64,000 bases of DNA from Streptomyces sp. L-9-10 (lineage in GTDB: Bacteria > Actinomycetota > Actinomycetes > Streptomycetales > Streptomycetaceae), in the NCBI RefSeq assembly GCF_004151105.1, contig NZ_PHRF01000028.1, positions 1 to 64,000 on the forward strand. The letters run 5' to 3'. Below, piece after piece: positions 39,379 to 57,372 of the stretch. A program made the translations under genes and the position numbers. Every line of letters begins with the position of its first letter. Positions within the stretch are counted from its first letter, which is position 1. The notes under the pieces are model-generated. The model did no database searches and was not told the DNA's origin. It saw only the letters and a list, made by a program, of their open reading frames with translations.

Positions 39379-40080
39379 ATGAGTGCTATGGACGGTAGTG
39401 CCATGGAGGCCAACCGCCTCATCGGCGGGGAACCGGCGTCACACCTGACCGTGGTGCTCGCCGACGACCATCTGGTCGTACGCGCGGGCATGCGGCTGCT
39501 GCTGTCCCAGGACCCGGCGTTCGACATCGTCGCGGAGAGTTCCACTCTTCCCGACACCTTTCTGGCCGTGGAGCGCCACCACCCGTCGGTGCTGGTCCTG
39601 GATCTGACGCTGGCGGGACAATCGAGCCTGCGCTCGATCCCGGAGCTGCTGGCGGCGTCGCCCCGTACCCGGATCCTCGTCCTCACCATGCAGGAAGATC
39701 CCGCGTTCGCCCGCGAGGCGTTGCGGATCGGTGCGGTCGGCTACCTGCTGAAGGAGGCGGCAGCGGAGGAGCTCCTGGGGGCCGCTCGCCAGGTCGCCGC
39801 GGGGGCCACCTACGTTCAGCCCTCGCTGGGCGCCCGCCTTGCCGTCACCGCCCCCGGCACGACGGGGCCGGGGGCGGGGGCGGACGACTCTCTGACGGCG
39901 CGCGAGGTGGAGGTGCTGTCCCTGCTCGCCCGGGGCCACACCAATCAGGAGATCGCGGAACAGACGCATGTATCCGTTCGGACGGTGGAAACGCACCGGG
40001 CCAGGATCCGGGAGAAGCTCGGGGCCGGGACCAAGGCGGACCTGGTCACGGCGGCACGAGAGCGCGGGCTGCTGGCATGA
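39379..40080 (+). CDS. LuxR-family (NarL-type) response regulator
   Basis: A 233-residue response regulator. The receiver domain spans about 23-140, with acidic pocket ADD (28-30), phospho-acceptor Asp75 (LVLDLTL) and Lys in YLLKE. A glycine/alanine linker leads to the C-terminal LuxR helix-turn-helix (LTAREVEVLSLLARGHTNQEIAEQTHVSVRTVETH). Its stop overlaps the kinase start as ATGA, so it forms a two-component system with the next gene. Targets are unknown. Confidence 0.92.
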   Translation: MSAMDGSAMEANRLIGGEPASHLTVVLADDHLVVRAGMRLLLSQDPAFDIVAESSTLPDTFLAVERHHPSVLVLDLTLAGQSSLRSIPELLAASPRTRILVLTMQEDPAFAREALRIGAVGYLLKEAAAEELLGAARQVAAGATYVQPSLGARLAVTAPGTTGPGAGADDSLTAREVEVLSLLARGHTNQEIAEQTHVSVRTVETHRARIREKLGAGTKADLVTAARERGLLA

Positions 40081-45883: not shown

Positions 45884-46288
45884 ATGACGTCGCACCAGAC
45901 CACCCAGACAATGAAGCCCGCGACCGCGGCGAAGAAGCTGGGTGTGTACCTCGAAGCCACCCCCGCCGAGTTCCAGGAGGGTGTCGTCTCGCGCACCGAG
46001 CTGAACGCGCTGCAGGCCGACCCGCCCGAGTGGCTGCTGGAGCTGCGACGCAACGGTCCGCACCCTCGTCCGGTGGTGGCGGCGAAGCTGGGCGTCTCCA
46101 TCTCGGGTCTCGCGCGCGGCGGAGTCACGGAAGCCCTCACCACGGAACAGATCGAGGCGTTGAAGGGCGACAGCCCGGAGTGGCTGCGCCAGGAGCGCGC
46201 CACCCAGGCCGAGGTGCGGAAGGAAGCCGTACGCATCAAGGAGAAGAACGCGGAGCGACGCGAGCAGCCCCGCCCTCCCCGTTCCTGA
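45884..46288 (+). CDS. DUF5997-family protein
   Basis: A 134-residue protein (KPATAAKKLGVYLEATPAEFQEGVVSRTELNALQADPPEWLLELRRNGPHPRPVVAAKLGVSISGLARGGV) recognised as the actinobacterial DUF5997 family. The AAKLGVSISGLARGG part looks like a helix-turn-helix, so DNA binding is possible. The C-terminus is charged. It pairs divergently with the LysR-like protein that lacks a helix-turn-helix, and the two may work together (inference). Its 3' end overlaps the convergent Gfo/Idh/MocA gene by 53 bp. Confidence 0.78.
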   Translation: MTSHQTTQTMKPATAAKKLGVYLEATPAEFQEGVVSRTELNALQADPPEWLLELRRNGPHPRPVVAAKLGVSISGLARGGVTEALTTEQIEALKGDSPEWLRQERATQAEVRKEAVRIKEKNAERREQPRPPRS

Positions 46289-47582
46289 CCCTCGCCGTCG
46301 TCGGGACGTCGTCGCGGTCGTCGAGTTCGACCACCGTGCCGGTCACCCGGGCCTGTTCCGCAGCCCACACCACGCGGTGGGTGGCGAGGCTCTCGGCGGC
46401 GTCGGAGAGCAGCAGGGACGCGTCGCCGGCGGCGACGGCGGTGAGGAACGCGTCGGTCAGCGCCTCGTCCCCGCCACCGTGGCCGTCCTCCGGTGAAGGC
46501 CCCGGGCTCCCCGCCGTCGCACGCGTGGATGTGTCGATCGTCTCCTCGGAGCCGTCACGGAAATCGACCAGCCGCAGTGTGTTCCCGTCGCCGTCGATGA
46601 AGCCGTGGGTGCCCAGCAGCCGGGTGCGGCGCTGTTCCATGGGGGTGAAGGCACTCATGGTGAACGAACAGGTGGCGCCGGAGTCGAACTCCATACCGAC
46701 CACCTGGTGGTCGACCACGTCGTTGTCGCACGCGTACACACAGCGGCCGTACGGCCCGGTGCGCAGCGCGTCCAGTACGCCCGTCTCGGTGTGGTCGTCG
46801 GTCACCGCCGACAGCGGCCAGAATTCCTGGTCCGGATCGCCCAGACAGCCCAGGTAGAGCCGCTTGGCCGAGTACGGGCAGTCCTTCTCCAGCGGGCAGT
46901 CCAGGCAGCGGCCGGCCGCGCCGGCCGGGGCGCCCTCGGGCCGGAAGTGCGTCAGGCCGCCGAAGGAGCTGACCCTCCGGGGCGTACGTCCGAAGAGGTG
47001 GACCAGCCAGTCGATGTCGTGGCAGGACTTGGTGAGCAGCATGGGGGCGGAGGTGTCCTGGCGGCGCCAGTTGCCCCGTACGAACGAATGGGCGTGGTGC
47101 CACCAGCCGACGGGCTCCAGGTGCTGGACGCTGACCAGGCCGCCGATGCGGCCACTGTCCAGCAGTCGCTTGAGGAGCCGGGTGTACGGCGTGTAGCGCA
47201 GCACATGGCAGACGGCCAGCAGGATGTCGTTGCGCCGTGCCGCGTCCGCGATCGCCGCGGCCTCGTCCTCACTGGTCGCCATCGGCTTCTCCAGGAGAAT
47301 GTGGTAACCGAGATCGGCCAGGGCCACCGCCGGTTCGGTGTGCAGCCGGTCCTGGGTCGCGATGACACAGGCGTCGGCGAGCTTGCCCGCCGCCGCGACA
47401 TCGCTCCAGTCCGCGTACACCCGCTCCGGAGGCACCCCGAACTCCTCCGCCGCACGCGCACGGCGCCGCGGGTCCGGCTCGGCCACCGCGACCACCCGTC
47501 CCGCTCCCGTGGCCAGGGCGCGCCGGGCGTATGTCATGCCGCGGAGTCCTGCTCCGACGAGGACCATCGTCACCTGGGACAT
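46236..47582 (-). CDS. Gfo/Idh/MocA-family NAD(P)-dependent oxidoreductase
   Basis: A 448-residue protein with Rossmann motif GAGLRG (10-15), catalytic-type Lys99 in EKPMAT and KSCHDID (185-191, His188) in the substrate domain. A four-cysteine insertion (Cys226, 229, 235, 246; CLDCPLEKDC) suggests a zinc or iron-sulfur site. GH109 alpha-N-acetylgalactosaminidases share this fold and use the same NAD-based chemistry as GH4, so glycosidase or epimerase activity on galactosamine sugars is possible (inference). It is the last gene of the GH114-GH4 operon, with its start overlapping the aldolase 3' end by 13 bp. The last ~53 bp are antisense to the DUF5997 gene. Confidence 0.85.
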   Translation of the reverse strand: MSQVTMVLVGAGLRGMTYARRALATGAGRVVAVAEPDPRRRARAAEEFGVPPERVYADWSDVAAAGKLADACVIATQDRLHTEPAVALADLGYHILLEKPMATSEDEAAAIADAARRNDILLAVCHVLRYTPYTRLLKRLLDSGRIGGLVSVQHLEPVGWWHHAHSFVRGNWRRQDTSAPMLLTKSCHDIDWLVHLFGRTPRRVSSFGGLTHFRPEGAPAGAAGRCLDCPLEKDCPYSAKRLYLGCLGDPDQEFWPLSAVTDDHTETGVLDALRTGPYGRCVYACDNDVVDHQVVGMEFDSGATCSFTMSAFTPMEQRRTRLLGTHGFIDGDGNTLRLVDFRDGSEETIDTSTRATAGSPGPSPEDGHGGGDEALTDAFLTAVAAGDASLLLSDAAESLATHRVVWAAEQARVTGTVVELDDRDDVPTTARVRNGEGGAARVAPRSSP

Positions 47583-48442
47583 GAAGCCTCCTTCCTGGAA
47601 TCGCCGAGTCCGTCCCGCTCCTGTCCGACCAGCCGCAGCAGGCGGGCGACCTCGTCCGCCACAGCCTCCCGCGCGGGACGCAGATAGGCACGGGGATCGA
47701 CGGTCGCCGGCCGCGCGGACAGCCGGTCGCGCACCGACGCGGTGAAGAGGGTGTTGAGATGCGTGGCGATATTGATCTTGCGCATGCCCGCCCGTACCGC
47801 GGCGGCGAGGTGGCTGTCGTCCACCCCCGACGAACCGTGCAGCACCAGCGGGACGGGCACCGCCGTGCGCAGGTCGCGGATGAGATCCAGATCGAGCCGC
47901 GCGGTACGCCGGGTCATCTGGTGGGACGACCCGACCGCGACGGCGAGCGCGTCGACACCGGTGTCGAGGACGAACCGGGCCGCCTCACCGGGGTCGGTGC
48001 GTACCCCGGGGGTGTGGGCACCGTCCTTGCCCCCGATCGCGCCGAGTTCCGCCTCGACCCACACCCCGTACGTGTGGCACCAGTCGCTCATCTCGCGGGT
48101 GCGGGCGACGTTCTCCGCCCAGGGCAGATGGGCGCCGTCGTACATCACGGAGGTGAAGCCGCGCCGTACCGCCTCCTCGATCAGCTCGGGCCGGGTGGCG
48201 TGGTCCAGGTGCAGCGCGACGGGTACGGATACGGCGGCGATGGCCTCGTGCGCGGCGGCGGTGAGCGGCCCGAGGGCGCCCCGGTACGCGACGGCGTTCT
48301 CGCTGATCTGGACGATGACGGCCTCGTTCGCCTGCTCGGCGCCCGCGAGGACGGCCTCGAGCTGTTCGAGGAGGACGACATTGAACGCGCCGACGCCGTG
48401 GGTCGCTGCGCCGAGGATGTCGCCGGTGGGGACGAGTGGCAT
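47570..48442 (-). CDS. Class II fructose/tagatose-bisphosphate aldolase
   Basis: A 290-residue class II (zinc) ketose-bisphosphate aldolase. The LHLDHA motif (77-82) gives His78, Asp80 and His81, with Asp102 (YDGAH), Glu132, His174 (GSSHQM) and His202 (LHGSSG) matching the zinc and phosphate site. KINIAT is the usual phosphate loop. GatY/KbaY-type enzymes cleave tagatose 1,6-bisphosphate to dihydroxyacetone phosphate and glyceraldehyde 3-phosphate. The SIS and PfkB neighbours make tagatose bisphosphate the likeliest substrate. ATG 48442 has AGGAAGCGG upstream. Confidence 0.87.
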   Translation of the reverse strand: MPLVPTGDILGAATHGVGAFNVVLLEQLEAVLAGAEQANEAVIVQISENAVAYRGALGPLTAAAHEAIAAVSVPVALHLDHATRPELIEEAVRRGFTSVMYDGAHLPWAENVARTREMSDWCHTYGVWVEAELGAIGGKDGAHTPGVRTDPGEAARFVLDTGVDALAVAVGSSHQMTRRTARLDLDLIRDLRTAVPVPLVLHGSSGVDDSHLAAAVRAGMRKINIATHLNTLFTASVRDRLSARPATVDPRAYLRPAREAVADEVARLLRLVGQERDGLGDSRKEASCPR

Positions 48443-48541
48443 GTTCCGCTTCCTGTGATGGACAGGTGGGTGAGGGGCAGGTGGGGGCATGGCGGAGGGG
48501 GGGCGGACGGCGGACGGGAGTGCCCGCCCGCCTCGCCGGTG

Positions 48542-49435
48542 TCAGCCGGTCGGCTCCAGGACGACCGAGCGCGTCAGATGAGCCGGCTGGTCGGGGTCAC
48601 GGCCGGCCGCCGTGGCCAGCTCGACCGCCAGACGCTGTACGACGACGAGTTCGGCCAGCGGGTCGAGCCGGGGGTGACGCAGATGGGCGCCCGTGGCACT
48701 GATCTGCTCGGCGAGCGGCCCGGGGAGTGACGAGAGTCCCCACACCGCGCGGCCCGGCGCGGCCACGGCGATGGGGCCGTGCCGGTACTCCATGACGGAG
48801 TACGACTCGGTCCACCAGGCCGCCGCTTCGCGCACCTTGAGCGCCGCCTCCGCGGCGATACCGACGCTCCAGCCCGCGCCGAGGAAGGAGATCTGCCCGG
48901 CCCCGAGCAGTTCGGGCTCGATCTCGGTGGTGAGGGCCGTTTCGGCATCGGCGAGCGCCCGGACGGTGCTGTGGCCCACGTGGGCACGGAGCAGCATGAG
49001 TTGTGTGGTGGGAAAGCGGGTCTGGACGACGGACCGCTCGTCCGCGTAGTCGAGGCAGATCACGTGATGGGCGGCGGCCGCCGCGGGGGAGTCGCCGACG
49101 GCGGTGACGACGGTGGTGCGCACGCTGGGCGCGAACCGGTCGAGCGCGGCGAGGACTTCGGTGGTCGTACCGGAACGGGTCAGGGCCAGCACCCGGTCGT
49201 AGGCGCGGTGCGGCCTCACCTCCGAGGCGGGGTACGCGTCCGTGAGCCCGAGCCCGGCCTCCTCCCGGAGATGCGCGTACGCCTGCGCCATGAACAGCGA
49301 GGTTCCGCAGCCGATGACCGCCACGCGCTCGCCCGGTGCGGGCAGGGCCGCGGCGTGGTCGGGAAGTTCCTTGAGGACGCGCTCCCAGCAGGCCGGCTGG
49401 GAAGCGATCTCTTGGCTGGTGTGGTGCTGGGACAT
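48542..49435 (-). CDS. SIS-domain sugar isomerase/deaminase (AgaS-like)
   Basis: A 297-residue protein with two SIS domains. The first has GCGTS (42-46) and TRSGTT (86-91). The second contains GAGWSVGIAAEAALK and ESYSVMEYRHGP, the block typical of amino-sugar phosphate isomerases. The family includes AgaS, which converts galactosamine 6-phosphate to tagatose 6-phosphate plus ammonia, and GlmS/FrlB-type proteins. With GH114, GH4 and the class II aldolase around it, the AgaS-type reaction is the best fit (inference). It lacks the glutaminase domain of GlmS. Confidence 0.85.
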   Translation of the reverse strand: MSQHHTSQEIASQPACWERVLKELPDHAAALPAPGERVAVIGCGTSLFMAQAYAHLREEAGLGLTDAYPASEVRPHRAYDRVLALTRSGTTTEVLAALDRFAPSVRTTVVTAVGDSPAAAAAHHVICLDYADERSVVQTRFPTTQLMLLRAHVGHSTVRALADAETALTTEIEPELLGAGQISFLGAGWSVGIAAEAALKVREAAAWWTESYSVMEYRHGPIAVAAPGRAVWGLSSLPGPLAEQISATGAHLRHPRLDPLAELVVVQRLAVELATAAGRDPDQPAHLTRSVVLEPTG

Positions 49436-49502
49436 GGTTCTCCGACGAGGTGTGAGAGTGCGGTGCGCGGGTGGGCGCCGGGGGAGGGGGAGCGAGGTGT
49501 GT

Positions 49503-50831
49503 TCAGTGGCCGAGCGTTGTGCGCAGCGACGGCTGGAGCAGATCCGCGTGCGCGCGCACCATGTCGTCGCACAGGTCCCAGATGCGTTCGACGGGCAGGG
49601 CGGCCGCGGTGGCCGGGTCGGCCATGGCCGCCTGCCGGATGGAGCGGGGGTCGTCCTCCAGAGCGGCCCGGACGACCAGTTCGTTCATGCTCAGATAGCC
49701 CCGGTTGAGCGCGGCGCACTGGGCGGGCAGCGAGCCGATACGGGTGGGCTGCACGCCCAGGGCGTCCACCAGGCAGGGGACTTCGACGGTACCGGTCGAC
49801 GGAAGATTGTCGATCAGCCCATGGTTGGGGACATTGCCGTAGACCGTGCGGGGCGTGCCGGTGGTGATGCTGTGGATGATCTGCGGGGCGTACTCCATGG
49901 TGCCCTCGACGGTCAGCGGGGCCCCACTGGCCAGCGCGTCACGGGTCCGCTCGTACTCGGCGATGTTCTCGTCGACGATGCCGAGGTAGGCGCCGACGGG
50001 CAGGCGCAGCCGCTCGATCTCGCTGTCGTGGTGCAGATACCAGGGGACGTATTCGGAGGAGTGCTCGCTGGTCTCGGTGGGGTAGTAGCCGAGGCGCCGG
50101 TACATGTCGACGCGTACCCGGCGCCGTAGCTCGGGGTTCTCCGCGACGAGGGCGTCGAGCCGCGGGTAGAGGTCGTTCCCCTGGTGTTCGAGACGCAGCA
50201 CCCATGCCTGGTGGTTGACTCCGGCGGCCCGGTAGGTGACCTCCTCGTGCGGGACGCCCAGGAGGTCCGAGAGGTCGCGGATGGTCCAGTACACCGAGTG
50301 GCACAGACCGACGACGCGGGTCAGCCCGGTGGCGCGGGTGAGGTACTGGACGTTCATCGCCATGGGGTTGGTGTAGTTGAGCAGCCAGGCGTCGGGGCAG
50401 ACCTCGGCGATGTCCTCGCCGAGCGACTTGAGCAGCGGGAAGGTGCGCAGCGCGCGGAAGATCCCGCCCACGCCGAGGGTGTCCGCGATGGTCTGGCGCA
50501 CCCCGTACGCGGCGGGAATCCCGAAGTCGGTACGGGTCGACTCGCGCATACCGACCTGGACGATGTTGATGACGAAGTCGGCGCCTTCCAGGGCCGCGCG
50601 CCGCTCGGCGTGGGCGGTGATCCGTGGCGTGGTGCCGCTCGGCTCCGTCAGCCGGTCCGCGATGTGGCGGGCGGCTCCGTGGGCCGTGGCGAGCCGTTCG
50701 GCGTCGATGTCGTGCAGGGCGATATGGGCGCCCTTGAGCTCGGGGAACGCGAAGAGGTCCGCCAGGAGGCCCTGGGTGAACACGACGCTTCCCGCGCCGA
50801 TGAATGCGATCTTCGGGGTGGTGAGGGTCAT
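49503..50831 (-). CDS. Glycoside hydrolase family 4, alpha-galactosidase-like
   Basis: A 442-residue GH4 enzyme. These hydrolases work by an NAD+ and divalent-metal redox mechanism. The N-terminal nucleotide fold reads KIAFIGAGSVVF. NYTNP (152-156), CHSV (177-180) and GVNHQAW (204-210) supply the metal-binding Cys and His. The CHSV form is the one found in non-phosphorylated alpha-galactosidase (MelA) types rather than 6-phospho-glucosidases. Cleavage of intracellular alpha-galactosaminides or galactosides is therefore likely. Start ATG 50831 overlaps the PfkB stop (ATGA). There is no signal peptide, so it acts on imported oligosaccharides. Confidence 0.88.
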   Translation of the reverse strand: MTLTTPKIAFIGAGSVVFTQGLLADLFAFPELKGAHIALHDIDAERLATAHGAARHIADRLTEPSGTTPRITAHAERRAALEGADFVINIVQVGMRESTRTDFGIPAAYGVRQTIADTLGVGGIFRALRTFPLLKSLGEDIAEVCPDAWLLNYTNPMAMNVQYLTRATGLTRVVGLCHSVYWTIRDLSDLLGVPHEEVTYRAAGVNHQAWVLRLEHQGNDLYPRLDALVAENPELRRRVRVDMYRRLGYYPTETSEHSSEYVPWYLHHDSEIERLRLPVGAYLGIVDENIAEYERTRDALASGAPLTVEGTMEYAPQIIHSITTGTPRTVYGNVPNHGLIDNLPSTGTVEVPCLVDALGVQPTRIGSLPAQCAALNRGYLSMNELVVRAALEDDPRSIRQAAMADPATAAALPVERIWDLCDDMVRAHADLLQPSLRTTLGH

Positions 50832-51835
50832 CAGAGGTTCTTTCCGTTGCGGGCGAGGGCCGTTCCGGCCTCGTCCCAGGTGGGCTGGGCGGCGGTGCCG
50901 CCGTGTGCCCGGGTGGACAGAGCGCCGCAGGCGGCGGCGAACGCGAGTGCCTCGGCGGTGGGCAGGCCGCGCAGGAACGCGGCGATGAAGCCGGCGTCGA
51001 AACTGTCCCCCGCGCCCACGGTGTCCAGCGGGCGGGCGGGGATTCCGGAGGTGCGCAGCAGGGTGCGGCCGTCGTGTACGAGGGCGCCGTCGGCCCCGTT
51101 CTTGAGCACCACCCGCGGCCCGCGCGCCGCGAGTGCGCCGGCCGCCGCCTCCGGGGAGCCGGTGGCGGCGGGCGAGCCGGTCGCGTCCGGGGCGGCGGCC
51201 GCGTCCGGAGCGGTGGCCGCCGCGAGAGCCAGCGCCTCCTGCGCGTTGGGCAGCAGGAAGTCGGTGACCGCGAGTGTCGCGTCGATACGGCCGGGGGCCC
51301 ATGTGCCGGAGGGGTCGTCATTGGTGTCGAGCGACGTGGTGACACCGTGCGCCCGTGCCGTGGCCAGCAGTTCGGGCAGCGCTTCGGCGAGTTTCGGCAG
51401 CAGGAAGTAGGAGGCGGCGTGCACATGCCGGCTGCTGGTGAGCAGCGCCTCGGGGATGTCGTCGGGACCGGTGGCGGAGAGGGTGCCGGGAGAGGTGAGG
51501 ATCGTACGGTCGCCGTCCCCGCGTGTCACGACCACGGTGAGCGGCGTCGGCAGGACGGGATCGACGCGCAGCGCGTCGGTGTTCACGCCCCGGGCGTCCA
51601 GCGCCGTACGGATGAAACGCCCCGCCTCGTCGTTTCCGACGCGCCCGGCGAAGGCGACCTTCAGCCCGAGCCGGGCGGCTCCGCACGCCATGATCGCGGC
51701 GGAGCCGCCGAGCGTGAGCAGGCCGGTGTCGACGAGTTGTTCGCGCTGTCCGAAGGCGAGCGGCGCGTCGAGCGGTCCCAGAACGATGTCGGGGTTGGCG
51801 TCCCCGATGACCAGCAGGTCGAAGGTGTGCGGCAT
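50831..51835 (-). CDS. PfkB-family sugar kinase
   Basis: A 334-residue ribokinase/PfkB-type kinase. The substrate-binding Gly-Gly (TLGGSAAIMACGAARLG, about 41-57) and the C-terminal DTVGAGDSFDAGF with catalytic Asp (about 270) are intact. An Ala/Pro/Ser/Thr-rich insertion (DAAAAPDATGSPAATGSP, about 208-233) separates them and looks like a flexible linker. In this operon it could phosphorylate tagatose 6-phosphate or the free amino sugar. Only one kinase is present, so another phosphorylation must come from elsewhere. ATG 51835 is preceded by a C/A-rich leader. Confidence 0.86.
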   Translation of the reverse strand: MPHTFDLLVIGDANPDIVLGPLDAPLAFGQREQLVDTGLLTLGGSAAIMACGAARLGLKVAFAGRVGNDEAGRFIRTALDARGVNTDALRVDPVLPTPLTVVVTRGDGDRTILTSPGTLSATGPDDIPEALLTSSRHVHAASYFLLPKLAEALPELLATARAHGVTTSLDTNDDPSGTWAPGRIDATLAVTDFLLPNAQEALALAAATAPDAAAAPDATGSPAATGSPEAAAGALAARGPRVVLKNGADGALVHDGRTLLRTSGIPARPLDTVGAGDSFDAGFIAAFLRGLPTAEALAFAAACGALSTRAHGGTAAQPTWDEAGTALARNGKNL

Positions 51836-51869
51836 GCGGCTTCCCGTGTTCGCGGTCCTGGCTGCCCAG

Positions 51870-51935
51870 GTGTGGTGTGGGTGGTGGTGTGGTGGTCTGT
51901 GGTGTGTGGTGTGTGGTGTGTGGTGTGTTCGTGGG
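51870..51935. repeat. GT-rich low-complexity tract (TGTGGTG iterations)
   Basis: Short iterations of GTGGTGTG/TGTGGTG fill the gap between the permease stop and the PfkB start. On the coding (minus) strand the mRNA here is C/A-rich and unstructured. A similar tract (about 55325-55400) precedes the binding-protein gene of the same operon. Slippage-type origin is likely; a role in translation initiation is possible. Confidence 0.6.
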
Positions 51936-51942
51936 GCGGGAC

Positions 51943-52869
51943 TCAGCCCTTGAGACCGCTGGACGTGATGGACTGGATGAAGGATCTCTGCGCGAAGAGG
52001 AAGGCGAGCAGCACCGGGAGCACGGTGATCACATTGCCCGCCATGACCGCGGACCACTGGGTGTGATGCTGCCCCTGGAAGGTCGTCAAGCCGAGCTGGA
52101 GCGTGTACTGGGTGTCGTGGTTGATGGCGATCAACGGCCAGGTCAGGTCGTTCCAGGTGGTCAGGAAGGTCAGGACCGCCACGGTGCTCAGGGCCGGTCG
52201 TGACAGCGGCAGCACGATACGGAACAGCACCCGTAGCCGTGAACAGCCGTCGATCCAGGCCGCCTCCTCCAGTTCCCTGGGCAGGGAGAGGAAGAACTGG
52301 CGCAGGAGGAACACGGCGAACGGTGTGACCAGCGACGGGACGATCAACGCGCCCAGGGTGTCGATGAGTCCGAGACGCTTCATGACCAGGAACGTGGGGA
52401 TCATCGTCAGCTGGAACGGGATCGCCATCGTGGCCAGCATCAGGCCCAGCAGGACACGGGAGCCGGCGAACCGCATCCGGGCGAACGCGTAGCCGCCGAG
52501 GGATCCGAGCAGCAGGTTGGACGCCACCGCGACCACCGACACGATCAGTGAGTTGGCGAACCAGCGCGGGAACATCGCGTTGCCGAGCACATACCGGTAG
52601 CCGCCCAGGTCGATCCCCGCCGGCCACAGGGCCGGCGGGAAACGATTGATCTCCGCGTTGCTCATCACGGAGCTGAGCAGCAGCCAGATCAACGGAATCG
52701 CGAAGATCAGGGTGAGAGGAGCGAGCAGCAGATGCCAGGGGCTGAACGGCAGCCACCGACGGCCTCGCGGAGGTCCGGCGGCCGGCCGGCCGGAAACGGG
52801 AGACGAGGCGGAAACGGAGCGAGAGGGGGCGGAGGGGGAGGCGGAAGCGGAAGCGGATGTGGCCGTCAT
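51943..52869 (-). CDS. Sugar ABC transporter permease (MalG type)
   Basis: A 308-residue permease with six predicted helices and a Ser/Ala-rich cytoplasmic N-terminus of about 45 residues. The EAA loop reads EEAAWIDGCS followed by LPLSRP. Its ATG overlaps the stop of the upstream permease (ATGA). It forms the import channel with that partner and the binding protein. No ATPase gene is present, so a shared MsiK-type ATPase is expected. Confidence 0.88.
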   Translation of the reverse strand: MTATSASASASPSAPSRSVSASSPVSGRPAAGPPRGRRWLPFSPWHLLLAPLTLIFAIPLIWLLLSSVMSNAEINRFPPALWPAGIDLGGYRYVLGNAMFPRWFANSLIVSVVAVASNLLLGSLGGYAFARMRFAGSRVLLGLMLATMAIPFQLTMIPTFLVMKRLGLIDTLGALIVPSLVTPFAVFLLRQFFLSLPRELEEAAWIDGCSRLRVLFRIVLPLSRPALSTVAVLTFLTTWNDLTWPLIAINHDTQYTLQLGLTTFQGQHHTQWSAVMAGNVITVLPVLLAFLFAQRSFIQSITSSGLKG

Positions 52870-53924
52870 CGTGCGGCTCCTTCGAGGCGGTGGTTCTCGC
52901 GTCGGCTCCGTACGGCCCGGGTCACCCGAGGGACAGCGGCGATCAGGAGCAGCGCGAGCGCCAGCGCGTAGGCGGCCGCCGCGCCGTAACCGGCGGTGAA
53001 GTTCTTGAACGCCTGCTCCCAGATGAAGTAGACGATCACGGTGGTGGAGCCGAGCGGTCCGCCCTTCGTCGTCACGTACACCAGGTCGAAGACCTGAAGC
53101 GCGTTGATGGTCTGCCACAGCAGGAGGAACACGATGACCGGTGTGAGCGCGGGAAGGATGACATGCCGCAGCAGGTGCCATCGTCCGGCGCCGTCCAGCC
53201 GCGCCGCCTCGATGAGGGACGGCGACACGTCCTGCAGCGCGGCGAGAGTGACCACCACGCAGAAGCCGGTGCCGCTCCACAGCGAGATCGCCACCAGAAT
53301 GAACAGGGACTGTCCGGGATCGGAGAGGAAGCCCTGGGAGGAGATGCCGAGCTTGTGCAGCACGGAGTTGGCCGCGCCGAACTCCGGATCGAGGATGAAG
53401 GAGAACAACACCCCCTGCGCCGTCGCCGAGATGACGAACGGCACGAACATCAGTGTGCGGTACACGCCCACCAGCCGGATCCGCTGATTCAGTACGAGGG
53501 CGAGCAGCAGCCCCAGACCGATGCTCAGCGGCACGTACAGCGTCGTGTACAGCAGTGTGTTGCGCACCGCCTGGCTGAAGTGCGGGTCCTGCACCAGCGC
53601 GTGGTAGTTGCCGAGGCCGACCCAGCGGCTGGGGGTGACCAGGTCGTCGGCCTGGAAGGACAGCAGCAGCGACCAGGCCACGGGGATGACGCTCAGACCG
53701 AGGATGATCAGGACCGAGGGAGAGACGAACGCCCAGGCGGTCGCGGTCTCACCGCGCAGCCACCGGCGTAGGGCGCCCGGTCGTGGTCGCTGTCCAGTGG
53801 CGCCCGACGCCGCGTCGCGGACGCCGTTGTCGCGGGTCGTGTGGTCGCTGGTCGTGTTGTCGTTGTGTTCGTTGTGCTCGTGGCCGTGGTCCGGAAGCGT
53901 GAGCGGAGTGGGCAGGCGCGGCAT
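52866..53924 (-). CDS. Sugar ABC transporter permease (MalF type) with His-rich N-terminus
   Basis: A 352-residue permease with six predicted helices starting near residue 62 and an EAA loop EAARLDGAG followed by LPALTP. The N-terminal ~35 residues are unusual: DHGHEHNEHND then alternating Thr/Asp/His, encoded by a GT-rich tract like those between the operon's genes. This looks like repeat expansion that became coding, or a start chosen too far upstream. The gene begins 10 bp after the binding-protein stop. Confidence 0.87.
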   Translation of the reverse strand: MPRLPTPLTLPDHGHEHNEHNDNTTSDHTTRDNGVRDAASGATGQRPRPGALRRWLRGETATAWAFVSPSVLIILGLSVIPVAWSLLLSFQADDLVTPSRWVGLGNYHALVQDPHFSQAVRNTLLYTTLYVPLSIGLGLLLALVLNQRIRLVGVYRTLMFVPFVISATAQGVLFSFILDPEFGAANSVLHKLGISSQGFLSDPGQSLFILVAISLWSGTGFCVVVTLAALQDVSPSLIEAARLDGAGRWHLLRHVILPALTPVIVFLLLWQTINALQVFDLVYVTTKGGPLGSTTVIVYFIWEQAFKNFTAGYGAAAAYALALALLLIAAVPRVTRAVRSRRENHRLEGAAR

Positions 53925-53934
53925 CGTATTCCTC

Positions 53935-55275
53935 TCAACGCGGGATGAGCAGAGCGGCGTTGGCCTCGTCCGCGCACGCGCGCAGGGCCTTGACGGGGGT
54001 ACTCCTGCCGAGGAGTACGGCGGCGATGGCCTGTCCGAGCGCCTGTGAGATCTGCGGATAGGCCGGGTGCACGGGACGTACGCGCGCCGTATCCAGCGCG
54101 CGGGTGAACACCGGCAGCCCGTCGGTCCTGGCCTCTTGCGCCTGCCAGGCGGGCAGGGCCTCGGTACGCCGGCTCAGCGGCAGGCTGCCGGCCATGACGT
54201 CCCAGCGCACATCCTGCGCGGGCTGCGCCAGCCAGGTGACGAAGGTACGTGCCGCCCGTACGCGCGCCGGACCGTTGTCGAACACGGTCCAGGTGTCGGG
54301 GCCCGATATGGTCATCGGCTTGCCGCTGTAGCTGGGCAGTGGCACCACGTGATAGTCGATCTTCGCCTGTTCGATGTCGGGCAGCTGCCACGGTCCGGTG
54401 ACGGCCATGCCCATCCGGCCGGAGAGAAAGACCTGGTACATCTGCTCGCTGCCCGGCTTGGGGTCGACGTAGACGCTCTTGTCCTTCGCGAGCGCCGCCA
54501 CCGTCTCCAGGGCCTGTACGCCGACGTCCGCGAACCCGATCCGCTGCCCGTCCTCGCTGACGACCTCGCCTCCCAGGTCCCACACCATCGGCCACAGCCG
54601 CCAGACCGTGTCCTCGTCGCCCACGCCGGGCCAGCCGGTGCCGAACGTGCCACGCCCCGCGTCGGTCAGCTTCTTTGCCGTCGCCACGAACTCCGCCCAG
54701 GTCCAGCCCGGTTCGGGAAGGGGCAGGCCGGCGTCGCCGAAGAGCTTCTTGTTGCAGACCACGGCGAGTGAGTCGATCAGCGCGGGGGCCGCCCGTACCC
54801 GTCCGTTGAGGGTGACGGCCTCGCGGGCGGGGGCCCAGAAGTCCTTCCAGGGGAGCGGGCCGGAACGGACCGTGTCGGTCAGATCCACCACGGACGGGCT
54901 GCGCGCGACACTGGCCAGGTCGGAGCCGAAGACATAGGCGACGTCGGGGAAGGAGCCCGACGCGAGCGCCGCGGTGATCTTCTGCAGCATCGCGTCGGCC
55001 AGCACGCCCCCACCGGAATCGACCCGGATGCCGGGGTGGGTGCGGTTGAATTCCGCGACCAGTTTCTCGATCGCCTGGCGGCCGGTGTCCGTCTGGCCGT
55101 GCCACAGTTCGACCGTGACCCGTCCGTCGGCTCCCACGCCGTCGCTCGTGTCCGTACCGCATCCGGGCAGGGCCGCGGTGGCGGCGGCACCGAGCGCCAG
55201 ACCGGTGCCCCGCCGCAGGACCGTGCGGCGCGAGAGCCCGGCGGGAGCGCCGGGAAGGCGGTGTGCTGCGGCCAT
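53935..55275 (-). CDS. ABC transporter sugar-binding lipoprotein (Tat-type leader)
   Basis: A 446-residue family 1 solute-binding protein. The leader contains a twin-arginine motif SRRTVLRRG (15-23), a hydrophobic stretch and the lipobox LPGC (Cys39), so it may be exported folded and lipid-anchored. The mature part starts VTVELWHGQTDTGRQAIEKL, typical of oligosaccharide binders. First transporter gene of the operon, 230 bp downstream of the secreted GH114 gene. Likely ligand: galactosamine-containing oligosaccharides released by that enzyme (inference). ATG 55275 gives a normal leader; the frame remains open further upstream through a Thr/His-rich repeat. Confidence 0.87.
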   Translation of the reverse strand: MAAAHRLPGAPAGLSRRTVLRRGTGLALGAAATAALPGCGTDTSDGVGADGRVTVELWHGQTDTGRQAIEKLVAEFNRTHPGIRVDSGGGVLADAMLQKITAALASGSFPDVAYVFGSDLASVARSPSVVDLTDTVRSGPLPWKDFWAPAREAVTLNGRVRAAPALIDSLAVVCNKKLFGDAGLPLPEPGWTWAEFVATAKKLTDAGRGTFGTGWPGVGDEDTVWRLWPMVWDLGGEVVSEDGQRIGFADVGVQALETVAALAKDKSVYVDPKPGSEQMYQVFLSGRMGMAVTGPWQLPDIEQAKIDYHVVPLPSYSGKPMTISGPDTWTVFDNGPARVRAARTFVTWLAQPAQDVRWDVMAGSLPLSRRTEALPAWQAQEARTDGLPVFTRALDTARVRPVHPAYPQISQALGQAIAAVLLGRSTPVKALRACADEANAALLIPR

Positions 55276-55505
55276 GCGAGCCCCCAGGGGAACGCGGCAC
55301 GGGACGTCACGCGGAAGCGTCCCGGCACGGTGGGTGGTGTGCTGTGAAGTGGTGTGCAGTGAGGTGGTGCGGTGAGTGGTGAGGGTGGTGCGAACAGTGT
55401 GCGCCGCGTGGGGGGGCGGGGAGCGGCGGCTTGGTGCACCCCACCTGAGACCGGGACGCACCAAGCCGTTCAGGACCGCTCGGCGGGCTGATCGGAGGGG
55501 CGGGT

Positions 55506-56324
55506 TCAGCAGGTCTTTCGGACGTACGCGCTGTCGCCGGGGGCGGTGACGTCGACGTCGCGCAGAACGACGCTCAGCCGGTCACCGAAGCCCGCGCAGG
55601 TTTCCTTGAAGTATTTCTCCTTGTACTCGATCACGATGACGTTGTCGCCGAATCCCTCGGTGTAGTCACCGCACTCGTCCCACTCACCGCACTCCTCCGC
55701 GATGGCGAAGTCAAGACCCGTCTCCGCGTGAGCGGTGGAGAAGTTCGCGGTGTTCTTCTGGGCGATGGCCAGGCCCTTGTCGTGCGCGTGCTGGGAGAGC
55801 AGCTTGATGAACGCCTTGGCGTTGGCCTCGCTGATCAGATCGAACCGGTCGAAGGTGTCGAGGTTGTCGGGTTCGACGGCGTTGAAGCCCTTGCTCGCGC
55901 AGGTGTCGATCCAGGAGTTCACCTTCGCGGCGATCCGCTGGCGCTTCGCGTCGGTACGGATATCCAGAACGGCCTCACCCCAGCCGTCGTCGTACACGAT
56001 GTCGCCGTTCGCGTCCCGCAGCAGCAGGTCGCCCCACTCGCTCTCGGCTCCCGGCTGGGCCTGGAAGGCGTTGACGTAGCAGATGTTGTACAGGCCCGCC
56101 GCCGGTGCGGCGGTGTAGTCACGGCTGACGACCTTCACACCGGCCGGTGGTGTGTAGGACCGGCCGATCTGGTAGTCGAAGTCGGCGTGTACCGGAGGGA
56201 GGGTCACGGCCCGGGGCGCCGCGCTCGCGGTGGAGGAGGCGAGCAGCGGGGTGATCACCGCCGTCGCCACGGCCGCCGCGGCGACGGCGCGACGACACGA
56301 CCGGACACGGTTGCTCAACAGCAT
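55506..56324 (-). CDS. Secreted GH114 endo-alpha-1,4-polygalactosaminidase-family protein
   Basis: A 272-residue secreted protein with signal peptide (1 to about 36). The GH114/TM1410-like TIM barrel is visible: HADFDYQIG (47-54), ICYVNAFQ (81-88), FNAVEPDNLD (147-156) with the acidic residues of the active site, AIAQKN (187-191) and a C-terminal VIVIEYKEKYF. Characterised members cleave alpha-1,4-linked galactosamine stretches in fungal galactosaminogalactan and the related Pel polysaccharide. GGAG lies 6 nt before the ATG. It heads the sugar operon, divergent from the DeoR regulator, and defines the probable polymer substrate of the locus. Confidence 0.87.
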   Translation of the reverse strand: MLLSNRVRSCRRAVAAAAVATAVITPLLASSTASAAPRAVTLPPVHADFDYQIGRSYTPPAGVKVVSRDYTAAPAAGLYNICYVNAFQAQPGAESEWGDLLLRDANGDIVYDDGWGEAVLDIRTDAKRQRIAAKVNSWIDTCASKGFNAVEPDNLDTFDRFDLISEANAKAFIKLLSQHAHDKGLAIAQKNTANFSTAHAETGLDFAIAEECGEWDECGDYTEGFGDNVIVIEYKEKYFKETCAGFGDRLSVVLRDVDVTAPGDSAYVRKTC

Positions 56325-56478
56325 CTTGAGCTCCAGAAGATGGGGGGTACGTCCCCGCCTCGGACTCCGCGATCTCCGCGGGTGTCCTGGCGACTCAGTC
56401 CGGGCTGGCGGTGCGTGGACCGCGTTACCGGCTGGGCGTACCTCTGGCGCCGGGTGCTCAACTCTGGCGTTGCATGGA

Positions 56479-56533
56479 GTAAAGCGAGCAACTTTCGGCA
56501 TGTCAACAGATCGAAGCTGCGCACTTTGCGCAC
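56479..56533. promoter_or_regulatory. Repeated CTTT-type elements between GH114 and DeoR genes
   Basis: In the 289-bp divergent gap three short related elements occur: AGTAAAGCG (56479-56487, CTTT on the minus strand), ACTTTCGGC (56491-56499) and GCACTTTGCGC (56521-56531). DeoR-family regulators of the AgaR type bind arrays of TTTC-like repeats, so these are candidate sites. The match is short and unproven. Confidence 0.35.
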
Positions 56534-56613
56534 ATGGGCAGTGGGTTCGACAGCAGCCGAGCCCCGGCTCATCCTCCGAGCTGGGCATTCCCGTGCGGGG
56601 CTATGCTCACCTC

Positions 56614-57372
56614 ATGCTGAAAGCTGAGCGTCATGCGCGGATACTTGAGCATGTCTCCGCGCGAGGCGGCTCCGATGTCCATGAGCTCTCCCGTCTGCTG
56701 AACGTGTCGGCAGCCACGGTCCGGCGCGATCTCCAGCATCTGAGCCGGCTCAATCTGCTGCGCCGTACGCACGGCGGAGCGGTGGTCGGCGGCGTCGCGG
56801 CCGAGCTTCCGGTCCAGCACCGCACGGAGCGCCGCCGGGCCGAGAAGCAGGCCATCGCGCGGGCCGCGGCCGAGCTGGTGCCGGCGGGAGCGGTCGTCGG
56901 TCTGACCGGTGGGACGACCGTCATCGAGATCGCGCGGGTGCTCGCCGCGCGCGGACCCGTCACCATCGTGACCAACGCGGTCAACATCGCCGCGGAACTG
57001 GTCCCGCACAGGGACGTCACACTGGTCGTCGTCGGCGGTTACGCCCGTACCGCGAGCTATGAACTCGTCGGCCCCATCGCCGAGAAGACACTGGCCGACC
57101 ATCACACCGACATGACGTTCCTGGGGGTGGACGGGATCAGCGCGGACCACGGCTGTACGACCCACGACCAGCTCGAAGCGGCGACGGACCGCGCCTTCGC
57201 CGACAACAGCGGCAGGACCGTCGTCGTGGCGGACCATTCGAAGATCGGGAAGGTCACCTTCGCGAAGATCTGCCCCCTGACGGACATCGACCACCTCGTC
57301 ACCGACAAGGCGGCTCCGGCCGACCCCCTCGCACGCATCGCCGACGCGGGCGTCGCGGTGACGGCGGTCTGA
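56614..57372 (+). CDS. DeoR-family transcriptional regulator (AgaR-like context)
   Basis: A 252-residue DeoR/GlpR regulator. The helix-turn-helix is at about 4-55 (ERHARILEHVSARGGSDVHELSRLLNVSAATVRRDL ending RRTHGGAV). The sugar-phosphate-sensing domain follows (GLTGGTTVIEIAR, VTNAVNIAAEL, VVVGG, FLGVDGIS, VVVADHSKIGKV). It is divergent from the GH114 gene and so placed to control the whole minus-strand operon. The inducer would be a phosphorylated intermediate such as galactosamine 6-phosphate or a tagatose phosphate (inference). ATG 56614 begins 6 nt after a TATGCT -10 (56602-56607), so the transcript may be leaderless. Confidence 0.9.
   Translation: MLKAERHARILEHVSARGGSDVHELSRLLNVSAATVRRDLQHLSRLNLLRRTHGGAVVGGVAAELPVQHRTERRRAEKQAIARAAAELVPAGAVVGLTGGTTVIEIARVLAARGPVTIVTNAVNIAAELVPHRDVTLVVVGGYARTASYELVGPIAEKTLADHHTDMTFLGVDGISADHGCTTHDQLEAATDRAFADNSGRTVVVADHSKIGKVTFAKICPLTDIDHLVTDKAAPADPLARIADAGVAVTAV

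Follow-up and report, generated by a model that had tools for sequence, protein, structure and literature searches.

The window analysed here, a 64,000-nucleotide stretch of Streptomyces sp. L-9-10 (contig NZ_PHRF01000028.1, positions 1 to 64,000 of the forward strand), contains a ten-gene array at 46236–57372 and, on the minus strand at 56330–56447, a structured leader RNA directly upstream of its first gene. An earlier note, made from the sequence alone, had described the array as a candidate operon for the use of galactosamine polymers; every gene that it listed was found, with strands and coordinates as claimed and a Pfam match for each, and the structured RNA is an addition to its gene list. 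The minus-strand order is GH114, binding protein, permease 1, permease 2, PfkB, GH4, SIS, aldolase and Gfo/Idh/MocA, with a DeoR gene divergent. The leader RNA, a candidate riboswitch in which P1, P2a/P2b and P3 are arranged round a junction, was recognised by covariation and scored 97.5 bits with R1, the RNA model used for searching. It is followed by the gene for a secreted GH114 endo-α-1,4-galactosaminidase homologue (55506–56324, ATG at 56324) and by genes for a solute-binding lipoprotein (53935–55275, start inferred; SBP_bac_1, 148 bits; LPGC lipobox in the translation), which is conserved across cassettes, and for two permeases of an ATP-binding cassette (ABC) transporter (52866–53924, start uncertain, and 51943–52869), both matching BPD_transp_1. 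Next come a PfkB-family kinase, proposed to act on galactosamine (50831–51835; PfkB, 178 bits), and a GH4 protein of the MelA type (49503–50831; Glyco_hydro_4 N- and C-terminal domains, 186 and 181 bits), proposed to be an α-galactosaminidase/α-galactosidase acting on imported oligomers. The minus-strand series closes with a SIS-domain protein, a proposed galactosamine-6-phosphate deaminase-isomerase (48542–49435; SIS, 49 bits), a class II ketose-bisphosphate aldolase (47570–48442; F_bP_aldolase, 279 bits) and an accessory Gfo/Idh/MocA oxidoreductase (46236–47582; GFO_IDH_MocA, 67 bits). The DeoR-family repressor lies on the plus strand (56608–57372, start inferred; DeoRC, 165 bits).

The first protein is a GH114 endo-α-1,4-galactosaminidase homologue, and activity on a galactosamine polymer is predicted from its sequence and modelled fold. 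PF03537 matched far above its gathering score (172.4 versus 27 bits), the N terminus is signal-peptide-like, and the catalytic pair D189/E247 of Ega3 aligned with D153/E210, an Asp/Glu pair kept in all 119 homologous GH114 domains. The AlphaFold model (mean predicted local distance difference test score 86.2) was closest to the structures of Ega3 (Z 23.4; root-mean-square deviation 2.4 over 218 residues), FsGH114 (Z 21.1), GH191 (Z 19.9) and the GH166 protein PelA (Z 17.8). Bacterial GH114 enzymes were reported not to be obtainable in stable soluble form (PMC12054363). GH114 is widespread in the genus, being found in 110 of 121 genomes with 62 matches at 274–304 bits, 80 at 116–194 bits and 5 fragments, and the window protein sits in the lower score group. 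The host genome (8.85 Mb, 171 contigs) holds two further GH114 genes, on contigs 89 (L037) and 171 (L038), which adjoin ABC sugar transporters of other types and lack the leader RNA.

Linkage within the genus was examined in the same 121 genomes, with GH4 relatives counted at E 1e-60 or better and linkage defined as a GH114 gene within 10 kb. This GH4 occurred in 17 genomes, and GH114 lay in the same cassette in 11 of them (G000, G021, G023, G024, G032, G055, G077, G084, G095, G100 and G118). All 80 contexts of the lower GH114 group were inspected, and no cassette was seen in the 6 contexts fetched from the 62 of the upper group (274–304 bits). The conserved core is the secreted GH114, the ABC binding protein, two permeases, PfkB and the MelA-type GH4, which is narrower than the array of the earlier note: SIS and aldolase, there taken as a constant part, are accessory, with SIS present in only 4 of the 17 GH4 genomes (G000, G021, G084 and G100). 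SIS had been tried as the anchor for GH114 linkage, but only four genus genomes showed it within about 10 kb, which seemed weak, and GH4 was the better anchor. SIS relatives (E 1e-30 or better) were present in 112 of the 121 genomes, and among 27 such short SIS loci outside cassettes DeoR stood beside 23 and aldolase beside 18; a protein so nearly ubiquitous, and so often found with these partners elsewhere, says little on its own.

The linkage reaches well outside the genus. When named genomes were scanned with the GH4 alignment, the best 80 of 570 stretches, all actinobacterial by title, were kept and are the loci referred to below; some of them coincide with genus genomes (L224/G032, L162/G048, L172/G312), and their genes were labelled by the best match in each stop-to-stop frame, which means that overlapping or split genes may be mislabelled. 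GH114 lay near GH4 in 34 of these 80 loci, spread over 11 named genera and several gene orders: Streptomyces (14/19), Nonomuraea (3/6), Amycolatopsis, Kribbella and Lentzea (3/3 each), Embleya (2/2), and Actinacidiphila, Actinocrispum, Umezawaea, Actinoallomurus and Hamadaea (1/1 each), together with one metagenome-assembled genome. From the density of GH114 genes, very roughly 0.3% of 20-kb stretches would be expected to hold one, and p-values for the linkage are only indicative because the loci are related. The position of GH114 varied: it could precede the binding protein, follow GH4, occupy the far strand or lie beyond DeoR. In Lentzea and Umezawaea the set also carried SIS, a LacC-like kinase, aldolase, GH4 and DeoR, and the Lentzea loci had PfkB as well. 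A tree of 120 GH114 domains required 12 changes of the linked state, of which starred branches force at least 8, whereas shuffling gave about 37; linkage is therefore clustered, although it arose or was broken on several occasions. Because this tree was made quickly, has long branches and includes one gene twice (L099, L143), the number of changes is rough. GH114 genes elsewhere are thus linked to GH4, the ABC transporter and PfkB, and partly to SIS and aldolase, so that the comparison of GH114 neighbourhoods proposed in the earlier note did not refute its reading, although in the genus just 11 of the 80 lower-group genes are in such a cassette. Between the window and the closest named relative by GH4 (98%), Streptomyces scopuliridis RB72 (L148), there has been a recent gain or loss of three genes (SIS, aldolase and DeoR). 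Matches above 600 bits to the Gfo/Idh/MocA protein were confined to L148, L152 and L192 among the best 80 loci, and in L192 this gene comes after LacC and aldolase.

The family membership of the GH4 protein is clear, as its translation carries the CHSV motif named in the earlier note and it passes the NCBIfam α-galactosidase model PRK15076 (575.1 bits, cut-off 486). This match favours ordinary uptake of α-galactosides such as melibiose or raffinose through a MelA enzyme, with GH114 as a chance neighbour, and so does the absence of GH114 from the stretch examined in 46 of the 80 loci, a count that also tells against a polymer-foraging function; among the 30 closest loci five lack it, one of them on a short contig. 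We nevertheless regard this explanation as very unlikely, given the repeated linkage in several gene orders, the occurrence of the same leader RNA both on unlinked GH114 genes and on the cassette, and the AgaS, KbaZ and BadF partners of the GH4 clade.

These partners point to the tagatose pathway. Beside members of the same GH4 clade were found KbaZ/GatZ (638.6 bits, cut-off 568.8), a LacC/1-PFK-type kinase (292 bits, cut-off 216) and an AgaS-family protein (446 bits, below the cut-off of 529). Mycolicibacterium and Mycobacterium loci without GH114 combined GH4 with an AgaS-family protein, KbaZ, a BadF kinase and mostly aldolase, and Micromonosporaceae-type loci combined it with SIS, PfkB, the LacC/1-PFK-type kinase and aldolase. 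Relatives of this GH4 thus sit with SIS or AgaS, aldolase, KbaZ and a LacC-like kinase; these neighbours suggest galactosamine and tagatose phosphates, the direction proposed in the earlier note. PfkB (51 loci) and BadF (9 loci) never occurred together in the 80 loci, 20 having neither, and the same held for SIS (31 loci) and AgaS (10 loci), with neither in 39; such zero co-occurrence is as expected of interchangeable enzymes, although the BadF and AgaS loci are mostly mycobacterial and the pattern may reflect few events. Seven mycobacterial-type loci (L203, L208, L210, L212, L214, L218 and L227) contain GH4, an AgaS-family protein, BadF, an ABC transporter and KbaZ, six of them also with an aldolase label, and on our reading of their gene content may form a compact ABC-fed route for galactosamine or N-acetylgalactosamine (GalNAc).

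For the window proteins themselves the specific models were less decisive. The SIS protein, named AgaS-like in the earlier note, has only a remote likeness to AgaS (TIGR02815, 38.8 bits, cut-off 529.2) and scored 71–80 bits with GlmS/GlmD models, again below their cut-offs. The aldolase fell short of the tagatose-bisphosphate aldolase (KbaY/GatY) model TIGR01858 (210.2 bits, cut-off 443.6) and passed only the broad ketose-bisphosphate aldolase model TIGR00167 (226.7 versus 215.6 bits), and the DeoR protein was AgaR-like below the cut-off (NF040755, 198.5 versus 260 bits). Searches of solved structures gave no substrate hint for the binding protein or PfkB. The higher GlmS/GlmD scores, together with the presence of SIS relatives in most genus genomes, leave room for action of SIS and PfkB on gluco-configured amino sugars by the glucosamine route, in which case the tagatose reading would be wrong. 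We consider this quite unlikely: AgaS takes the place of SIS in 10 loci, a LacC-like kinase and aldolase stand beside SIS, and KbaZ stands beside the same GH4. PfkB would then be a galactosamine kinase and SIS a deaminase-isomerase. Sulfoquinovose and apiose routes were also considered for PfkB, the aldolase and the Gfo/Idh/MocA protein, and were set aside. The claim of a complete route is not supported, because ABC import requires two phosphorylations and the array has one kinase, leaving the route one step short at this locus. Elsewhere in the same genome lie a SIS-LacC-aldolase set on contig 133 (L039) and a PfkB-SIS-aldolase set on contig 162 (L036).

The absence of a deacetylase had been taken in the earlier note to fit a de-N-acetylated polymer. 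Locally the absence stands, as Pfam recognised none among the ten array genes or the eight flanking open reading frames (two of the eight had no match), but the conclusion drawn from it is weak: NagA of S. coelicolor was reported to be active on GalNAc-6-phosphate (PMC12680351), so an unlinked enzyme could serve. The substrate might then be a GalNAc-rich polymer or oligomer, with GH114 merely opening the chain and NagA deacetylating GalNAc-6-phosphate, and the description of galactosaminogalactan and Pel as mixed polymers agrees with this (PMC12054363). The reported preference of the GH114 enzyme Ega3 for de-acetylated stretches (PMC12054363) and the lack of a recognised deacetylase in the array and the neighbouring frames scanned make the GalNAc substrate unlikely. 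The six flanking frames with a Pfam match encode a GMC oxidoreductase, a LysR-type substrate domain, DUF5997, a PAS/SpoIIE protein, a ClpB-type AAA protein and a histidine kinase, and none of these recognised genes has a sugar link; no galactokinase or GalT domain was recognised in 28 neighbouring frames scanned. An Amidohydro_2 (PF04909) protein was encoded in 11 of the 80 GH4 loci, 10 of them without GH114 (L226:12270–13376, with homologues in L190, L191, L194, L197, L201, L202, L206, L209, L213 and L222), and could be a deacetylase or lactonase of the pathway.

The leader RNA came to light through the observation that the DNA upstream of GH114 is similar in Streptomyces and Amycolatopsis. 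The copies used to build R1 came from a motif scan of the loci and comprised the window copy and 52 of 101 locus hits (49 were dropped as duplicates or for lacking the core); the genome searches made with R1 are independent of that choice. In the 53 aligned copies the element is 100–119 nt long and ends at the Shine-Dalgarno sequence. RNAalifold placed P1, P2 and P3 about a three-way junction, single folds led to hairpin P2b being drawn in by eye, and the residues joining the helices are nearly invariant across genera. In a plain MAFFT alignment (A4), 94.8% of the cells of 26 pairs were paired and 11 pairs were changed on both sides; a second alignment (A6) was fitted to the model structure and leans to it. 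The changes on both sides amounted to 65 cells against a shuffled mean of 20.5, none of 500 shuffles equalled any measure, and controls with slid partners gave at most 47.5% pairing and at most 8 pairs. Coding sequence was considered as an explanation and rejected: the lengths modulo 3 (23, 15 and 22) and the phases of the motif to the start codon (13, 25 and 22) were spread over all classes, and a stop in the gene frame occurred in 25 of 60 copies. No Rfam 15 family reached its gathering score in positions 40000–62000, lax filters (up to E 5) gave only one 12.9-bit match of 21 nt over the element, and no family overlapped the element in L097 or L175. On this evidence the leader is an RNA family absent from Rfam and the part of the locus most worth following.

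Its distribution is narrow. R1 gave 31 matches in 20 of the 121 genus genomes, the window copy being the only one in its own genome; 26 lay within 400 nt before a GH114 domain, always of the lower score group, and the other 5 upstream of the binding-protein gene of a cassette. The RNA was present in 13 of the 17 cassette genomes versus 7 of the 104 others, and in G096 and G109, where the cassette lacks GH114, both the cassette and GH114 genes elsewhere in the genome carry it. Among the best 80 named loci, 27 held a total of 31 matches at E <1e-9, of which 25 preceded GH114 and 6 the binding protein, including diverged forms in Kribbella (60–64 bits), and 25 of the 34 GH114-bearing loci had a strong match. 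For the targets as a whole, 43 GH114 and 10 binding-protein genes among 53 copies are the preferred counts, the figures of 46 GH114, 8 binding-protein and 6 unassigned among 60 copies being off through labelling. Weak matches (R1 27–29 bits, R2 30–32 bits, E about 1e-4) in L184, L186 and L192, with the core motif kept and P1 and P2 shorter, stand just before a LacC-like kinase, which would add a third type of target gene to this theme; these loci are, however, related and account for only 3 of the 19 with a LacC label.

Outside these sets the RNA was rare. A further 78 loci (1.43 Mb) gave three sub-threshold matches only, one of them a truncated copy before GH114. A search of 394 genomes of the class, run with stricter filters that lose weak matches, found matches in 8, of which six belong to the genus; the two others (G404 and G210, 29.7 and 26.9 bits) have no core motif and none of fifteen pathway genes in the stretch, and were set down to chance. 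Of 296 phylum genomes, an IUPAC core pattern hit 4, every one a member of the genus, and its reversed control hit none of the genomes listed. Two copies appear to record gene loss. In G236 a second copy (L264:9058–9162, minus strand) stands before a truncated GH4 frame, apparently in a decayed cassette that kept its RNA. In L133 (14828–14932, minus strand) GH114 has apparently been deleted in such a way that the binding-protein gene now starts with the leader RNA and first codons of GH114.

A 5′ leader whose structure is conserved through compensatory changes, and which is confined to genes with a single metabolic theme, is most readily understood as a metabolite riboswitch, since galactosamine-type metabolism is all that its targets have in common; as far as sequence can tell, a riboswitch candidate for a metabolite of the galactosamine pathway is the likeliest reading. 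The alternative of a protein-binding leader or an element of stability or translation is possible, if somewhat doubtful. No consistent switching hairpin was found, and in 47 of 54 copies with a recognised frame the RNA ends 2–9 nt from the start codon, so that translation could be its target; the three-way junction with its joining residues kept across genera, and the single narrow metabolic regulon, speak for a riboswitch. Several further observations weigh against the main reading. Minimum free energy z-scores of single RNAs were mixed, with 4 of 12 reaching −2.29 or lower and 2 being positive, and the Shine-Dalgarno sequence was predicted to be mostly paired in 40 of 57 copies with no common partner. 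Only 26 of the 80 lower-group GH114 genes carry the RNA, 4 of the 17 cassette genomes lack it, and 7 genomes have it before GH114 without a cassette. A strong match is missing from 9 of the 34 GH114-bearing loci (those of Lentzea, Umezawaea, Actinocrispum, Actinoallomurus and Hamadaea, and Nonomuraea L180 and L189), and likewise from the S. rimosus-group cassettes L162 and L163. For 4 of the 5 genus copies before a binding protein, the RNA is followed by a short frame, and the start of the gene lies about 270–440 nt further on. The L133 copy, whose first codons resemble those of GH114 in L141, is an apparent relic, and some binding-protein copies may descend from a GH114 leader; the second and third ranks of the L173 and L156 binding-protein copies among 63 (106–107 bits) argue that such copies are kept.

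The gene content, the conserved linkage, the predicted GH114 fold with its catalytic residues, and the covarying RNA with its narrow gene association together suggest a dual-controlled route, of which the substrates, the order of reactions, the role of DeoR, and the ligand and switching direction of the RNA are those that we infer. The module is a type of sugar-uptake operon, and it probably serves foraging on cationic α-1,4-galactosamine polymers, galactosaminogalactan or Pel-like, with RNA control. Secreted GH114 would cut the polymer, and the binding protein and permeases would import the oligomers with an ATPase supplied in trans, presumably MsiK. GH4 would trim the oligomers to galactosamine, plus galactose if present, followed by phosphorylation of galactosamine by PfkB and conversion of galactosamine-6-phosphate to tagatose-6-phosphate and ammonia by SIS. 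Tagatose-1,6-bisphosphate would then be formed by a LacC-like kinase whose gene lies elsewhere, or by a general phosphofructokinase, and would be cleaved by the class II aldolase. DeoR would repress transcription, judging from its position and family, and the leader before GH114 would act as a second control at the RNA level, most likely as a riboswitch for a metabolite of the pathway; in relatives it would also govern the operon of the binding protein and, in a diverged form at three loci, the LacC kinase. That it represents a new riboswitch class for galactosamine, galactosamine-6-phosphate or tagatose-6-phosphate, the first for this sugar, coordinating a scattered regulon of the hydrolase, the importer with its α-galactosaminidase GH4, and Micromonosporaceae-type tagatose-6-phosphate kinase-aldolase genes, is a real possibility that we put forward tentatively.

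The polymer-foraging proposal has to be set against several contrary observations. We know of no described galactosamine-specific GH4, so that an α-galactosaminidase would, as far as we are aware, be a new specificity for the family. Within the genus 69 of the 80 lower-group GH114 genes lie outside such cassettes and 11 inside, and L148, with GH114, transporter, PfkB, GH4 and Gfo, has no SIS, aldolase or DeoR within its 10-kb flanks. FsGH114 was reported inactive on Pel and TmGH191 inactive on galactosaminogalactan (PMC12054363), so homologues need not share activity. On balance, the earlier note described the locus correctly and pointed largely the right way, and its interpretation is partly supported.

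No bacterial operon for eating galactosaminogalactan or Pel, nor this RNA, appeared among the open-access titles and abstract openings listed, and the introduction and sections 3.1–3.4 of a review of GH114, GH191 and their relatives name no catabolic operon (PMC12054363). Galactosaminogalactan and Pel belong to the matrix of biofilms formed by fungi and bacteria. The module names testable enzymes, predicts a GH4 acting on galactosamine and would give bacterial GH114 a catabolic role, and its leader RNA, compact and well conserved, is a candidate riboswitch whose few likely ligands make it directly testable.

Each part has a counterpart among known systems. Loci of MelA-type GH4 α-galactosidases share the GH4 subfamily model and a sugar ABC transporter, whereas the partners here are amino-sugar genes. 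In the glmS ribozyme-riboswitch an amino-sugar phosphate controls amino-sugar genes through RNA, and the likeness lies in this control, but glmS, like every Rfam family, has no match to the element. The aga/kba operons of Enterobacteria and streptococci combine a repressor, a deaminase-isomerase and a tagatose-bisphosphate aldolase with import by the phosphotransferase system; the logic is alike, and in Mycolicibacterium-type loci the same GH4 has KbaZ and an AgaS-family protein as neighbours, but the present array uses ABC import, GH4 and a sugar kinase, and its SIS protein is not an AgaS. Ega3, FsGH114, GH191 and the GH166 protein PelA have the predicted fold and catalytic Asp/Glu in common with the window GH114. 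Ega3 and PelA are described as serving polymer biosynthesis (PMC12054363), whereas the window GH114 heads a gene set for uptake and catabolism.

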